Source: Candidatus Eiseniibacteriota bacterium
Lineage (GTDB): Bacteria; JAFGKV01
Assembly (NCBI GenBank): GCA_025453925.1
Contig: JALOPK010000205.1
Coordinates: forward strand, 1 to 7,068
DNA length: 7,068 nucleotides
Direction: 5' to 3'
The notes under the pieces: model-generated
Database searches by the model: none
What the model was told of the DNA's origin: nothing
The model's input: the letters and a program-made list of their open reading frames with translations, nothing else
Position numbers and translations under genes: made by a program
Shown here: one piece after another, positions 1,643 through 7,029 of the stretch
Layout: each line of letters starts with the position of its first letter
How positions within the stretch are numbered: the stretch's first letter is position 1

Positions 1643-4600
1643 TCAGAGCCCCAGCTCAAGCTGAACTGCGCGGCGGAGCTGCAGTCTTGAAGTGGTGAGA
1701 ACCTCTCGAGGAATAACGTCCGCGAAACTGGAAAGGCTTGAGGGAGGCCCACTCCAGGTCAACCCCAGATATGCGCGCGCCCTGGTCATGGCGACATAGC
1801 AGAGTCGTCGTTCCTCATCGATGTCGGCATCGGCCAGAGGGAGAAGACCATTTCGGAACCCGGTGACGAACACCGCGCCGAACTCGAGGCCCTTGGCCGC
1901 ATGCATGGTGAGAATGCGGACGGCATCCGCACGGACATCTGCGACCCCCGTCTCCCGCTCGGTCACTACTCTGGCGACGAACCCGCCGATGTCCGGGGTC
2001 TCATCGGCCAGTTTCGCAAGCGCTTCCATTCGGTGCGGGTCAATGTCGGTAGCCAAACCCCTCGCGGCGAGCTGTGCCAGAGCGTCCGCGGACGAGCCCC
2101 TGCACAGACGAAGCAACCCGGCCTCTTCGCTGTTGGTCAGAGCAGCGGGGGAGGATCTCCCGGCAGTCCACCCCGATGCCATCAGTCGATCCGCAAGACT
2201 GGCGGGCTCCAGGCTGAGGCGAAGCCACGCCAGGATTTTCGCCACAGCGGGATCCTCGGACAGCGTCGAAGCACGTGTCGTTCGGCACGGAATGCCAGCT
2301 GCGGAAAGAGCCTCGGCGAATGATCGCATCATGTTCGCGGTCCGCACCAGCACGGCGACGTCGCCGAAACCCTGAGCAGTCGGCTCGCCGCCCGAACTGT
2401 CAAGCAGCGAGACGCCGCCCAGCAAATCGCGGATCTTACCCGCCACCATCCGCGCTTCTCCTTTGACCGTGCCTGCTCTCAGCAGCTCAACCGTGCCGTG
2501 ATGCGCCACCTCGGAATGCATGGGAGGCTGCCGACCGGCCACCGCATCCGCGGCCCGCAGGATCGGCGCGGCGCAGCGGTAGCTCCCGGAGAGGTGCATG
2601 ACCCGACACCCCGGATGATCCCGGGTGAATCGGTGGACGAGCCGTGGGTCTCCACCCCGGAACCCATAGATGGCCTGGAATGGGTCGCCGATCACCATCG
2701 CGGATTGACCGATGGCCGTCAAACGGGCGATCAGCCGGTATTGCAGCGGGTCAAGATCCTGAAATTCATCAACGAAAAGGTGGGCACCGGGCGGCCATCC
2801 GGGGCTCCCCGAGAGGTCGGTGGCGCGCTGAATGAGATCGTCGTAGTCACAAGCCCCCGCCTGCTCCTTGATGGCAGCATAGGTGTCCAGAAGCATGTTG
2901 ACATCCAGGAAAGAATCCCCTGGTGGCCGGCCGCCGAGTCTCAATGCCGAGACCCGCTGCACCAGCCTCTGCGCCCTGGCGCGGGAGACAGGATGCCCCG
3001 CTCCTGCCAGTGCGAACTGCAACAGCGCACCACGTTGGGCGTCATCGTGTAGGTTGACCCTTTGTCCCGCCCTTGACAGCAGGCCGTGGGCGAACTGATG
3101 AAGCGTGCCAGTCCACAACCGCGGGCTGCTGCCCAGCCCCTCCAACCGCCCCTCCAGCTCCCGGGCGGCAGCCCGGGTGAAGGTGATCCCGATGACGGGC
3201 GCTTCGCCTTTACGCATCAGGGTTTCGCGCATGCGCTGTGTGAGCAGACGCGTCTTGCCGCTCCCCGGCCCGGCAATGACCGCGAGGAAACCCTCCCCGG
3301 CCTCTCGAACCTCCTCCGGGCGACCGCCACTCCGGTGGACGGGCGGGGTTGTTGCCAGCTCCAGGTCGAGTTGAGCGGCGGCCCGGCCTTCCCGCAGGGT
3401 TTCCGGCTCGGCCGACCCCAACACGCGAATGACCCCGTATTGACCGTCAAATCCTCCCTCCCTGGTGACGTGTCCACTCCTGACATTCGCGACCGCTTCC
3501 GCCATTCGATCGCCTCCCGCGCGCTCCAGCGCATCGAGAGGCGCATCCACGAGGATGAAGAGCTCGGGACCCAGGGCGCGCAGCAGGTGGTCATACGCCG
3601 TGCGCACGGTGCGTGTGGCGGGGCCCACTCGCAGCACCTGGCCGAGGATCTCAACAAGCGGCACCAGCCGTGAGAACCCGGGCCTTGAGGGCGGTGCCAA
3701 CCCTGAAGGACGATCCGCCAGCTCGGACACGCGGTGCATGACGCCGATCGTGAGCGCCCCGCCGCAGACCGGGCAACGCCCCGCATGACGACGCGTGTCC
3801 TCCGGCTCCAGCCGTACTCCGCAGACACGATGGCCGTCAAGGTGGTACTTCCCCTCCTCCGGGAAGAACTCGATGGTCCCTTCGATCGTGCCAGCCCTCC
3901 CCCGCATCGCATCCTTGATGCTCTCGAAGGTGGGATCGCACTGGAACACCGTGGCCTCGCGACCCAGTTTGTCCGCGGAGTGAGCGTCGGAGTTGGAGAG
4001 TATGGCGAATCGGTCCAGGGAGGACAGCCTCCAATTCATGGCCGGGTCGGATGAGAGCCCCGTCTCGACGGCGAACACATACTGACTCAGGTCGCGGTAG
4101 CACTCCTCAATGCTGTCATAACCGCTCCGGGACCCAAGGGCCGAGAACCAGGGAGTCCAGATGTGCGCCGGAATCAGGAATGCCCCGGGATCGGTCTCCA
4201 GAACTGTCTCCAGGAGATCCCTGGAACTCAAACCCAGAATCGGTCTGCCGTCTGACTCCACCGAACCGATCCTTGACAGTGAGGACGAGAGTTTCGCGGC
4301 CGCCGCAAAGGACGGGAGGCACACCAGATGGTGCACCTTCCGCACTCTCCCGTCGGAGTAGATCGTGCTGATTTCCACGGTCAGCATGAAGCGGATGTCC
4401 CGGCCGGCGACGGGGACCTGGGACAGCGTTGCGACCCGCGAGGGGTGCAATCTGAACAGGCCGTCTTCGGCGGGAACCAGCGCGTCCTGTGCTTCCGCCC
4501 GCCATGCGGGGTGAACGATATCTCCCGTTCCCACGATGTCGATGCCCTTGCAGCGCGCCCAGTGATGGAGGCTGCCCAGAGTCAGGGAACGGCTCGTGGC

Positions 4601-4645
4601 TACGGAATTGCGGCCGTGGAGGTGCAGATCGGCGACGAGTCTCAT
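1643..4645 (-). CDS. Endonuclease Q-like PHP nuclease fused to UvrD/Rep-like helicase
   Basis: A 1000-aa cytoplasmic DNA-repair fusion. Residues about 1-411 match the EndoQ family, nucleases that nick DNA 5' of deaminated bases (hypoxanthine, uracil) and AP sites. Candidate PHP metal ligands are His8/His10 (DLHLH), Asp42 and His45 (GTGDIVHP), Glu91, His105/His106, His161 (PAHIWTPW) and Asp220/His222 (NSDAH). A zinc-type motif follows (His272, Cys275, Cys291, Cys294), then an EndoQ-like end (LVDAPL, GFDGQYGVI). Residues about 441-1000 carry SF1A helicase motifs: I AGPGSGKT (458-465), Ia TFTRAAARELEGRL (488-501), Ib TGTLHQFA (512-519), II VDEFQD (625-630), III GDPFQAIYGFRG (653-664), IV SGSYR (686-690), V TMHAAKGLEF (913-922), VI EERRLCYVAMTRAR (944-957). 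The ATG at 4645 gives MRLVADLHLHG, close to standalone EndoQ starts. A GTG at 4702 would add 19 residues but has no convincing ribosome site. It is divergent from the arsR-type gene. Specificity is inferred from homology only. Confidence 0.93.
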   Translation of the reverse strand: MRLVADLHLHGRNSVATSRSLTLGSLHHWARCKGIDIVGTGDIVHPAWRAEAQDALVPAEDGLFRLHPSRVATLSQVPVAGRDIRFMLTVEISTIYSDGRVRKVHHLVCLPSFAAAAKLSSSLSRIGSVESDGRPILGLSSRDLLETVLETDPGAFLIPAHIWTPWFSALGSRSGYDSIEECYRDLSQYVFAVETGLSSDPAMNWRLSSLDRFAILSNSDAHSADKLGREATVFQCDPTFESIKDAMRGRAGTIEGTIEFFPEEGKYHLDGHRVCGVRLEPEDTRRHAGRCPVCGGALTIGVMHRVSELADRPSGLAPPSRPGFSRLVPLVEILGQVLRVGPATRTVRTAYDHLLRALGPELFILVDAPLDALERAGGDRMAEAVANVRSGHVTREGGFDGQYGVIRVLGSAEPETLREGRAAAQLDLELATTPPVHRSGGRPEEVREAGEGFLAVIAGPGSGKTRLLTQRMRETLMRKGEAPVIGITFTRAAARELEGRLEGLGSSPRLWTGTLHQFAHGLLSRAGQRVNLHDDAQRGALLQFALAGAGHPVSRARAQRLVQRVSALRLGGRPPGDSFLDVNMLLDTYAAIKEQAGACDYDDLIQRATDLSGSPGWPPGAHLFVDEFQDLDPLQYRLIARLTAIGQSAMVIGDPFQAIYGFRGGDPRLVHRFTRDHPGCRVMHLSGSYRCAAPILRAADAVAGRQPPMHSEVAHHGTVELLRAGTVKGEARMVAGKIRDLLGGVSLLDSSGGEPTAQGFGDVAVLVRTANMMRSFAEALSAAGIPCRTTRASTLSEDPAVAKILAWLRLSLEPASLADRLMASGWTAGRSSPAALTNSEEAGLLRLCRGSSADALAQLAARGLATDIDPHRMEALAKLADETPDIGGFVARVVTERETGVADVRADAVRILTMHAAKGLEFGAVFVTGFRNGLLPLADADIDEERRLCYVAMTRARAYLGLTWSGPPSSLSSFADVIPREVLTTSRLQLRRAVQLELGL

Positions 4646-4755
4646 CTGGCGCCCCGTACTGCGAGAGGGCACGAGACGGCGCTCGATCCTCTCCGGCCAC
4701 ACCGTGGGACACGACCCGCCGGGACGCGTCGGCGAACAGGTGACGCAGGCCGGGT

Positions 4756-4787
4756 CTTCGATATCTTCTTCACGTGCTTCGTATCAT
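4756..4787 (+). promoter_or_regulatory. Direct repeat and putative -10 box ahead of the arsR-type gene
   Basis: CTTCGATATC (4756-4765) is repeated as CTTCGTATC (4777-4785), 21 bp start to start, about two helical turns. CACGTG (4771-4776) lies between the copies. TATCAT at 4782-4787 matches a -10 box at 5 of 6 positions and overlaps the second copy. No good -35 is visible at the right distance. If it is used, transcription would begin near 4794, leaving a leader of about 30 nt before the ATG at 4825. A protein bound to the repeats would cover the promoter. Confidence 0.35.
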
Positions 4788-4810
4788 CCACCATGAACAT
4801 CCATCGTTCC

Positions 4811-4815
4811 GGGAG
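4811..4815 (+). promoter_or_regulatory. Ribosome binding site of the arsR-type gene
   Basis: GGGAG lies 9 nt before the ATG at 4825 (6 nt before an in-frame GTG at 4822). It supports one of these starts over the upstream in-frame GTG at 4774, which would overlap the putative promoter. Confidence 0.6.
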
Positions 4816-4824
4816 TACCGTGTG

Positions 4825-5217
4825 ATGAACACCGAACCGTCGAATGTGCGCCCCCTGGACCGTGCAGGCAACGGCGGCTCGACCGGGGAGCTGGCCCACG
4901 CAGCAGCCGTGCTCAAGGCCATGGCGCATCCGATCCGGCTCGTGGTCATCTGCGGTCTGCTGCGGCAGCCCTCCACCCTCACCGAGATCAGCATCGCCCT
5001 CTCGATCCCCTCTTCGACCATGGCGCAGCATCTGAACGTGCTGCGCCACGCGGGCATTATCCGTGGCGCCCGCCTCGGACGGGAGGTACGATTCTCCGTA
5101 GTGGACGACTCCGCGCGAAGCATCATGAGCCTCCTCTGCCGGCGATTCGCCGGATCCCCTTCTTGGTCTGACCTGGCGTCCCACTGCACTCCCGGCGATC
5201 TCCACGCTGAGGGCTGA
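4825..5217 (+). CDS. ArsR-family winged-helix transcriptional regulator
   Basis: A 130-aa protein of normal size for small ArsR-type repressors, which bind operator DNA as dimers and release it on a signal. After a polar N-terminus of about 22 residues comes the ArsR core: LKAMAHPIRLVVICGLL (30-46), TLTEISIALSIPSSTMAQHLNVLRHAGII (51-79, the helix-turn-helix and recognition helix), and a beta-wing GARLGREVRFSV (81-92) followed by the C-terminal dimer helix. The classical ArsR/SmtB metal motif (CxC in the helix before the recognition helix) is absent, as is an obvious DxH/HxxE helix-5 site. Three scattered Cys (43, 105, 121) remain, so metal sensing is not supported and the signal is unknown. 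It is divergent from the EndoQ-helicase gene, which makes that gene and itself the likely targets, by inference. A GTG at 4774 would add 17 residues; the ATG was chosen for its ribosome site. Confidence 0.88.
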   Translation: MNTEPSNVRPLDRAGNGGSTGELAHAAAVLKAMAHPIRLVVICGLLRQPSTLTEISIALSIPSSTMAQHLNVLRHAGIIRGARLGREVRFSVVDDSARSIMSLLCRRFAGSPSWSDLASHCTPGDLHAEG

Positions 5218-5523: not shown

Positions 5524-7029
5524 TCAGTTGGCGACAGGATTGCTCAGGGCCAGCAGCGTGCAGAACCGATCGAGGGCGCGGTCCATCACCGTGCCGGGCC
5601 CCGGGTAGCCGTTGATCATCACAGAGAAGACGAGCTGATCTCCCGCCACAGTCGTGGCGTAGCCCGACAGGCATCGTACCCCCTGCATCGAACCGGTCTT
5701 GGCGCGGACTCGCCCTTCGGCGGGCGAGCCCACGAGCCGCTCCTCCATGTTCCCGCTACGGCCTGCCGCCGGGAGGCTTGCCGCGAAGGCCTCTCCCCAG
5801 GAGCGTTCGCGGGCCCTAAGGAGAAGCGCGGCCATGAAAGAAGGGGAGGAGAGATTCAGCCGTGACAGGCCGGAACCGTCTGCCATGCTCAGGCCATCTC
5901 TCGGCACGCCCAACATGTCCAGCGTCTGGTTCACGACCTCGATCCCTGCGGCAGGGCTCCCGTCTCCCCCCCGCTCTCGTCCCATCATCCTCAGGAGCTG
6001 CTCTGCCCAAAGGTTCTTGCTGCGATGATTGATGACCTCCGTGAGACTCGCAAGAGTCGGAGACACATGGGAGGCCACGCGAAGCACTCCTGTGCCGTCG
6101 GCGCACCCGACTGCCGCCTCCCCCACCACGGTGATACCCCTTGAACACAGGGCAGCGCGGAGTTCCGCGGCGGCGATGTGCGGAGGATCCGTCACGACCA
6201 CCGGCAACCTGACCGCTCGCCCATCGGCGGGGACGGCTCCCGACACCGTCACGCCGCCGCCCGGCGGCCACGTGAGCCGCAATGATCGAATCCCTTGGGC
6301 CTCGACGGTCCGGACGTCGCACGTGATGCTCGCTCCGGCGCTGGCAGGTTCAGCTCTCCACTGCGCGACGCTGCCGGGGCGGGAAGGCGTGATGCTCACG
6401 TCCGCAGTGTTGTCCCGGAAGCAGAGACCAGATGTCGGCGCGGCGAAGCCGAAGCCAAGATCATCCCAGGCCCATCCCGCGCCGGGCATGCCGGGAGGGA
6501 AGAAGTCGCTGCACCCAAGAACGCCGCCGGAGATGACACGAATGCCCCGGGCTTCAACGCTGTCACACCATGCCTCCAGCGGCGCCGGGCCTCCCGCCTC
6601 CAAACTCGCGAACGAGGGGTCGCCTCCGCCGACGATGACGAGATTCGCCAGGGCGGTATCACCCTGGAGGATGCCGTCGAGCACCAGCTCAGTGAGAAAC
6701 GTGTGGCCGGGGCCAAACCGCTCCAGGGCGCAGGCGGTCGTGATGAGCTTGATGTTGGATGCGGGAACGAAGAGCGTGGTGGGATTATGGCGAAGGATGA
6801 CCTCACCGGAGGTCGCGACGACCAACGCCCCCCAACTCGCTCCTTCGTGTGCCAACGGTTCGAGTGCAAAGGCAACCTGATCGCGCAGCCATGTCCGACC
6901 ATTCGGGCTCCCGGTAACATGGCCGGACGCGCACCCTACGACCGTCGCCGCCAGCAACGCCCCGATTCGCGACGCGAAGCGTGCCGCCCGAGGGCGAATG
7001 CCGAAGCGACGTGTACGACGGGTGCTCAC
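5524..7029 (-). CDS. dacB: D-alanyl-D-alanine carboxypeptidase/endopeptidase, peptidase family S13 (PBP4 type)
   Basis: A 501-aa penicillin-binding protein that trims the terminal D-Ala of peptidoglycan peptides and can cut D-Ala-mDAP cross-links in the periplasm. The serine-peptidase motifs are all present: SxxK at Ser91-Lys94 (PASNIKL), SxN at Ser337-Lys-Asn339, and KTG at Lys444-Gly446 (AKTGSMQG). The S13 marker GGGDPS (134-139) and the GWAWDDLGFGFAAPTSGL block (185-202) place it in S13, with the family's large insertion between SxxK and SxN. The N-terminus is Arg-rich, then hydrophobic (GALLAATVVGC) with a lipobox-like VVGC ending at Cys33, so it may be a lipoprotein; most family members are cleaved by signal peptidase I. 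The start is GTG at 7029 with only a weak AAGG upstream. The next Met is far inside the protein, so a start close to this one is required to keep the signal. It is convergent with the arsR-type gene, and its promoter lies beyond the window. Confidence 0.93.
   Translation of the reverse strand: MSTRRTRRFGIRPRAARFASRIGALLAATVVGCASGHVTGSPNGRTWLRDQVAFALEPLAHEGASWGALVVATSGEVILRHNPTTLFVPASNIKLITTACALERFGPGHTFLTELVLDGILQGDTALANLVIVGGGDPSFASLEAGGPAPLEAWCDSVEARGIRVISGGVLGCSDFFPPGMPGAGWAWDDLGFGFAAPTSGLCFRDNTADVSITPSRPGSVAQWRAEPASAGASITCDVRTVEAQGIRSLRLTWPPGGGVTVSGAVPADGRAVRLPVVVTDPPHIAAAELRAALCSRGITVVGEAAVGCADGTGVLRVASHVSPTLASLTEVINHRSKNLWAEQLLRMMGRERGGDGSPAAGIEVVNQTLDMLGVPRDGLSMADGSGLSRLNLSSPSFMAALLLRARERSWGEAFAASLPAAGRSGNMEERLVGSPAEGRVRAKTGSMQGVRCLSGYATTVAGDQLVFSVMINGYPGPGTVMDRALDRFCTLLALSNPVAN

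Follow-up and report, generated by a model that had tools for sequence, protein, structure and literature searches.

An EndoQ-like nuclease joined to a UvrD-type helicase, with clamp-binding-like peptides, in bacteria of many phyla

Why would a bacterium carry an endonuclease Q (EndoQ)-like nuclease and a UvrD-type helicase on a single polypeptide chain? The question is raised by a gene on a 7,068-base contig of a Candidatus Eiseniibacteriota bacterium (JALOPK010000205.1 in assembly GCA_025453925.1), the whole of which we refer to as the window. Characterized EndoQ enzymes nick DNA on the 5′ side of deaminated bases and apurinic/apyrimidinic (AP) sites (PMC4357722, PMC6202378). From the letters of the window, an original prediction had proposed that one protein combines such a nuclease with a helicase and serves as an alternative excision route. 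Here, we show that the two halves form a single conserved chain found in more than 10 phyla and that this chain carries peptides resembling binding motifs for the beta sliding clamp, and we weigh what the fusion might do.

RESULTS

A single conserved frame encodes both halves

The fusion gene lies on the minus strand (positions 1643 to 4645) as a single uninterrupted frame of 1,000 residues, from an ATG at 4645 to a stop codon at 1643 to 1645. This agrees with the original prediction of nuclease and helicase in one frame, for which no strand had been given; translation of the same interval on the plus strand was rejected, as it meets stops throughout. An in-frame GTG at 4702 is a possible alternative start that would add 19 residues, and homology begins at the ATG. 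The only other genome of the genus in our set (G001) encodes a 63% identical fusion, also in a single frame. Between the two genes, the nonsynonymous divergence (dN) is 0.21 and 0.38 in the two halves and the synonymous divergence (dS) is about 1.5. Because dN is well below dS, both halves of the fusion are under purifying selection. The linker between them evolves fast (38% identity between the window and G001; dN, 0.72), and its length varies among the fusions, with a median of about 77 residues.

The N-terminal half is homologous to EndoQ

A phmmer search aligned residues 5 to 408 with residues 5 to 382 of the Pyrococcus furiosus EndoQ (PfuEndoQ) chain (5zb8), that is, over the whole length of the enzyme (E value, 2.5e-52; 36% identity). 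The predicted structure likewise superimposes on 5zb8 with a Z score of 44.3 and a deviation of 2.6 Å, with 385 of 398 residues aligned. Mutation of E76, H84, or H139 abolishes the activity of PfuEndoQ, and H139, G169, and S171 form a base-selecting pocket that sterically excludes T and A (reviewed in PMC8307549). The window residues that correspond to E76, H84, H139, G169, and S171 are E91, H105, H161, G196, and S198, and all five are invariant in the 43 fusions that we aligned. The first ligand of the putative zinc site is His in 41 of these 43 proteins and Cys in the other 2, while PfuEndoQ has four cysteines. With homology over the whole length and the presence of every catalytic and base-selecting residue named in the literature covered, the full-length EndoQ-like nuclease of the original prediction is borne out.

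The profile search suggested along with that prediction gave a more qualified answer. TIGR00375, the NCBIfam hypothetical equivalog that covers EndoQ, was matched over the whole model at 165.6 bits (E value, 2e-48), below its curated cutoff of 326.6. None of the seven surveyed bacterial homologues reached this cutoff, and it was also missed by one of the three matching controls (Bacillus subtilis, Methanocaldococcus jannaschii, and Methanosarcina acetivorans). Because the cutoff is not reached, we describe this half, on sequence similarity, as EndoQ homologous rather than as a member of TIGR00375 itself. A second, more distant type of bacterial stand-alone EndoQ was found at four loci (L220 to L223, in genomes G054, G048, G320, and G325). 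These proteins are about 31 to 35% identical to that of the window, stand nearer to the TIGR00375 model (281 bits in G048), and are separate from the main bacterial branch.

The C-terminal half is a shortened UvrD-like helicase

Residues 448 to 965 match UvrD, PcrA, and Rep, and the Pfam models UvrD-helicase, UvrD_C, and AAA_19 all exceed their cutoffs. As originally predicted, superfamily 1A (SF1A) helicase motifs follow the nuclease: those that we tested occur in order (I, GPGSGKT at 459; II, VDEFQD at 625; III, GDPFQAIY at 653; V, LTMHAAKG at 912; and VI, VAMTRA at 951), the core is intact, and every motif residue tested is invariant across the 43 aligned fusions. The PcrA, UvrD, and Rep equivalog models score 186, 161.9, and 149.3 bits against cutoffs of 911, 1,144, and 951, respectively. 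Because these cutoffs are unmet, the half is classed by profile score as UvrD-like and not as an orthologue of PcrA, UvrD, or Rep.

An AlphaFold2 model built from the 43 fusions (mean predicted local distance difference test [pLDDT] score, 82; predicted template modeling [pTM] score, 0.57) separates into two confident folds, one PfuEndoQ-like and one UvrD-like. When compared with the four-domain UvrD fold (1A, 1B, 2A, and 2B), the helicase half aligns with UvrD (4c2u) over 517 residues (Z score, 41.3; 3.4 Å), with low confidence at residues 816 to 848 on the 2B side, where the region is shortened. This shortening is general: the median distance between motifs III and V is 251 residues in the fused helicases and 307.5 in housekeeping ones, and the median tail after motif VI is 62 residues compared with 139.5. 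These differences suggest that the fused helicases have a reduced 2B domain and have lost the C-terminal extension. The 2B domain restrains monomers of Rep and UvrD, and its reduction might therefore permit a lone fusion molecule to be active as a helicase.

Clamp-binding-like peptides at the junction and the C terminus

Two short peptides that the original prediction missed alter the likely mechanism. QLDLEL (residues 425 to 430) stands at the junction of the two halves and QLELGL (residues 995 to 1000) at the very C terminus, both at places with a pLDDT score of <50 that are predicted to be disordered. Known clamp-binding motifs take the forms QLxLF and QLxLxL, and that of Escherichia coli Pol IV is QLVLGL (PMC4564189). 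Within the last 16 residues, a QLxLF-, QLxLI-, or QLxLxL-like peptide was present in 81 of the 98 complete fusions but in only 0.39% of shuffled tails. The same strict pattern was found in 26 of 72 stand-alone EndoQs (more if it is relaxed, e.g., to QISLF) and in none of 20 housekeeping UvrDs. Just past the EndoQ domain, 40 of 105 fusions have a Qxx[LIM][FLIW] motif, compared with 2.9% of shuffled linkers, and this is the site at which a stand-alone EndoQ ends in its own clamp motif. The patterns were picked after some of the sequences had been viewed, and the exact ratios are descriptive; the contrast with UvrD and with shuffled tails is too large for the choice of pattern to explain.

In archaeal EndoQ, a C-terminal PCNA-interacting peptide (PIP) box binds PCNA, which stimulates the enzyme, and beta clamp-like motifs have been noted in bacterial EndoQs (PMC4858679). 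The natural reading of the motif positions is that the fusion retained EndoQ's older clamp peptide at the joint and carries another at the new C terminus. A diverged variant occurs in two related genomes (L214 in G264 and L215 in G130), where frames of 1,340 to 1,408 residues contain a stretch of 324 to 387 residues that separates the EndoQ part from a helicase part with a weak match, and the peptides QQDLF and NQLMLF lie past the EndoQ domain. The features of the fusion gene in the window are collected in Table 1.

TABLE 1 Features of the fusion gene and their positions in the window
Feature	Position	Strand	Basis
EndoQ-UvrD fusion gene, 1,000 aa	1643..4645	-	Open frame; 63% identical intact orthologue in G001; dN/dS
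EndoQ-like domain, aa 1-410: PHP nuclease, zinc motif, C-terminal domain	3416..4645	-	PfuEndoQ match, predicted fold, residue mapping
Putative zinc site H272-x2-C275 ... C291-x2-C294 (HC3)	3764..3832	-	Alignment counts; coordination inferred
Predicted disordered linker, aa 411-445	3311..3415	-	pLDDT <50 at 414-440; 38% identity with G001
Junction clamp-binding-like motif QLDLEL, aa 425-430	3356..3373	-	Position; QLxLxL form (PMC4564189)
UvrD/PcrA-type SF1A helicase, aa 446-966, shortened between motifs III and V (2B side)	1748..3310	-	Pfam, motifs, spacing, fold
Walker A/motif I GPGSGKT, aa 459-465	3251..3271	-	K464 and T465 invariant in 43/43 fusions
Motif II VDEFQD, aa 625-630	2756..2773	-	D626 and E627 invariant in 43/43 fusions
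C-terminal clamp-binding-like hexapeptide QLELGL, aa 995-1000	1646..1663	-	Form like Pol IV QLVLGL (PMC4564189)

The fusion is widespread, chromosomal, and solitary

That similar fusions may exist in other bacteria had been allowed for, a suggestion that proved understated. Of 386 bacterial genomes sampled broadly, 100 had an EndoQ homologue, and the 101 loci comprised 34 fused, 1 split into adjacent genes, 63 alone, and 3 cut by contig ends, so that about a third of the EndoQ-like loci are fused. Among the nearest named loci, 71 of 80 were fused, and 105 fused loci (98 of them complete) were available overall. The named carriers span more than 10 phyla. They include Actinomycetota (Micromonospora, Salinispora, Saccharopolyspora, and Actinopolyspora), Myxococcota, Thermodesulfobacteriota (Geobacter argillaceus and others), Planctomycetota, Verrucomicrobiota, Chloroflexota, Gemmatimonadota, Binatota, Fibrobacterota, Elusimicrobiota, Melainabacteria, metagenome-assembled genomes of Pseudomonadota, and KSB1.

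In a tree of EndoQ domains (143 rows), all 76 fused rows fell within one set of 92 rows (support, 96), whereas most stand-alone EndoQs of bacteria fell elsewhere. A few rows in this set are stand-alone or split, for which later loss or fission is the best explanation. In the helicase tree, a single branch with a support of 100 parts 39 fused helicases from 19 housekeeping UvrD-type proteins. The trees were quick ones with long branches, that of the window's helicase half among them, and the helicase tree took in few outside SF1 helicases, such that stand-alone relatives may nest in the fused set. Both topologies agree with a single ancient fusion followed by losses, and a small number of separate events would also be compatible with them. 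At four loci (L036, L089, L100, and L158), EndoQ and a UvrD-type helicase are encoded by separate adjacent or overlapping genes, with gaps of +73, −28, −63, and −12 bases, respectively. These are either true fissions or frameshifts within the fused clade.

No fusion was found in 72,556 plasmids, in 50,697 phage records, or in a pattern scan of IMG/VR, and no neighbor family recurred in more than 4 of 75 fusion loci. The fusion gene is chromosomal and solitary. In the window itself, positions 1 to 1547 of the minus strand hold an ordinary translation cluster of tRNA-Thr(tgt), tRNA-Tyr(gta), tRNA-Gly(tcc), and EF-Tu, the listed frame of which starts at 1313 and overlaps tRNA-Gly; its real start is near 1199. 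On the other side lie a gene for an ArsR/SmtB-type regulator whose N-terminal part is long (4774 to 5217, plus strand), divergent from the fusion gene, and one for a PBP4-type D-Ala-D-Ala carboxypeptidase (5524 to 7029, minus strand). Neither of these two genes shows any sign of forming an operon with the fusion gene.

The fusion coexists with uracil-DNA glycosylase and housekeeping UvrD

Uracil-DNA glycosylase (UDG) is encoded in 369 of the 386 genomes, that of the window included, and a role of the fusion as a general replacement for UDG was rejected. Of the excision route originally predicted, the conserved single polypeptide stands and the word "alternative" does not: because UDG is encoded by the window's own genome and by nearly all of the others sampled, and usually coexists with the EndoQ homologue, a route through the fusion would be an additional one and not a replacement. 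EndoQ homologues were enriched in genomes without UDG (among good genomes, 6 of 8 compared with 79 of 330 [P = 0.004]; P = 0.019 over all genomes), a comparison that involves few, phylogenetically nonindependent genomes and P values uncorrected for phylogeny. It fits a role in the repair of deaminated bases, if weakly. The EndoQ-carrying genomes in which no UDG superfamily gene was detectable are G025, G037, G125, and G316, with fused genes, and G066, G333, G377, and G385, with EndoQ alone. A housekeeping-type UvrD occurs together with the fusion in G001, G016, G025, and G037, and replacement of housekeeping UvrD by the fusion was also rejected. In the window's genome (G000; 82% complete), housekeeping UvrD was not found.

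DISCUSSION

We observed a conserved single chain with retained catalytic and base-selecting residues, an intact set of helicase motifs, and clamp-like motifs. The fusion is probably a chromosomal repair enzyme in which an EndoQ-type lesion nickase and a UvrD-type helicase, tethered to the beta clamp through one or two peptides, first nick and then unwind. By analogy to characterized EndoQ, the clamp-bound protein would encounter uracil, hypoxanthine, xanthine, or an AP site, and its EndoQ half would flip the lesion and cut on the 5′ side, leaving a 3′-OH and a 5′-phosphate end that bears the lesion. The helicase half might then load at the nick and move 3′ to 5′ on the intact strand, peeling off the lesion strand as a 5′ flap; as the nick is 5′ of the lesion, the downstream strand would have the lesion at its 5′ end, and this is the strand that a helicase moving in this direction would displace. 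The 3′-OH would be free for a clamp-bound polymerase, and the same clamp could recruit the polymerase, a flap nuclease, and a ligase to fill, trim, and seal. The loading strand, the direction, and the coupling of nicking to unwinding are what we infer.

Several points weigh against this proposal. Stand-alone EndoQ exists, so that a helicase is dispensable for nicking, and strand displacement by a polymerase could remove the lesion with no helicase at all. We found no biochemistry of any fused protein in the literature. The EndoQ half scores below the TIGR00375 cutoff, and, as the low pTM score indicates, the model places the halves relative to each other with little confidence. The clamp peptides are short motifs with putative binding, and at the junction the search pattern is met by a minority of the fusions only. 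Finally, UDG in the window's genome means that the fusion is not the sole means of uracil repair, and the enrichment in UDG-less genomes carries the limits given above. We hold more tentatively a wider version of the proposal, in which the fusion represents a widespread, undescribed bacterial excision pathway where one clamp-tethered chain nicks at damage and unwinds the damaged strand. The two clamp peptides could then grip both pockets of one beta dimer and place the nuclease and the helicase on the two sides of the ring.

The order of events could also be reversed, with the helicase acting first as a lesion scanner along DNA or at the fork and opening the duplex so that EndoQ inspects and cuts unpaired or weakened DNA. 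In single-stranded DNA, EndoQ does cleave at uracil and hypoxanthine, and it favors destabilized pairs (PMC11354406), and the two catalytic centers share one chain with a flexible linker. Nevertheless, we consider scanning unlikely, as EndoQ bends duplex DNA and flips out lesions unaided (PMC11354406) and cutting the unwound strands of a fork would risk double-strand breaks.

A similarly doubtful account is that the two activities are merely colocalized: EndoQ nicks, a polymerase displaces the strand, and the helicase serves another purpose at the fork, such as that of an accessory helicase or the removal of bound proteins. The long and variable linker, the many stand-alone EndoQs (63 of 101 loci), and the additional housekeeping-type UvrD of four carriers would all suit uncoupled halves. 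However, the retention of the fusion in more than 10 phyla and the separation of its helicases, as one set, from housekeeping UvrD speak for a joint function.

A role in defense against phages or other invaders, with the fusion acting as a Gabija-like nuclease-helicase on uracil-containing or modified foreign DNA, is highly improbable, and we rejected it together with a role in mobile elements. Bacterial EndoQ has been suggested to aid antiviral defense (PMC8307549), and PADLOC models of GajB match the helicase half (E value, 3.7e-53). These matches reflect general SF1 similarity, however, because models of UvrD and PcrA match it as well. Unlike in Gabija (GajAB), no GajA is encoded beside the fusion in the window, nor is any other defense gene, the neighbors being the tRNA-EF-Tu cluster and the ArsR- and PBP4-type genes; the plasmid, phage, and IMG/VR scans were empty, and the fusion loci have no conserved neighbors. 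Last, the chance that an assembly or annotation error merged two neighboring genes, the doubt raised with the original prediction, is negligible: the contig is short (7,068 bases), the genome is only 82% complete, and split adjacent genes do occur in a few organisms (the four loci above), but G001 carries an independent intact fusion, which shows that the window's is no misassembly, and the 105 fused loci come from many independent assemblies, including those of cultured isolates.

Both halves have well-known relatives, and each departs from them. Like EndoQ of Pyrococcus furiosus (PF1551), Thermococcus kodakarensis (TkoEndoQ), Methanosarcina acetivorans (MacEndoQ), and Bacillus pumilus, the fusion has the full-length homology, the fold, the catalytic and base-selecting residues, and a four-ligand zinc motif. 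Known EndoQs are stand-alone proteins of about 400 residues, whereas the fusion adds a UvrD-type helicase, has His in place of Cys as the first zinc ligand, and falls below the TIGR00375 cutoff. The helicase shares with UvrD, PcrA, and Rep all of the core motifs tested, and its predicted fold matches UvrD with a Z score of about 41. It differs from housekeeping UvrD in belonging to a separate set with a shorter region between motifs III and V, a shorter tail, and a clamp-like end. An SF1A helicase and a nuclease also share one chain in AddA, RecB, and AdnAB, the helicase folds of which are related. In those enzymes, a C-terminal RecB-type nuclease takes part in the processing of double-strand breaks; in the fusion, the nuclease is N terminal, of the PHP-type EndoQ family, and expected to make nicks at single lesions.

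The principle of a clamp-binding motif is shared with archaeal EndoQ (PMC4858679), although the clamp motifs of the fusion are putative. As in E. coli Pol IV (QLVLGL), a C-terminal QLxLxL or QLxLF peptide stands in a disordered tail (PMC4564189). Compared with Pol IV and other clamp-bound bacterial enzymes, the fusion is a different type of enzyme, and its clamp binding is predicted from the motif.

We came across no account of an EndoQ-helicase fusion in the literature covered, from which subscription papers and preprints were mostly absent, and this is hence no proof of novelty. No NCBIfam model spans the fused architecture, and the only models that its members match are TIGR00375 and those of helicases. 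EndoQ is known and so are UvrD-type helicases; their combination with clamp-like peptides is undescribed as far as we found.

EndoQ has been described as mainly archaeal, with few bacterial cases, and the steps that follow its nick have not been worked out. The large bacterial branch that links EndoQ to a helicase and to clamp-like peptides suggests an answer, namely strand displacement on the clamp. As the fusion is present in cultured bacteria, among them Micromonospora, Saccharopolyspora, and Geobacter argillaceus, the part of the repair that comes after incision by EndoQ can be tested directly in vitro and by gene deletion.

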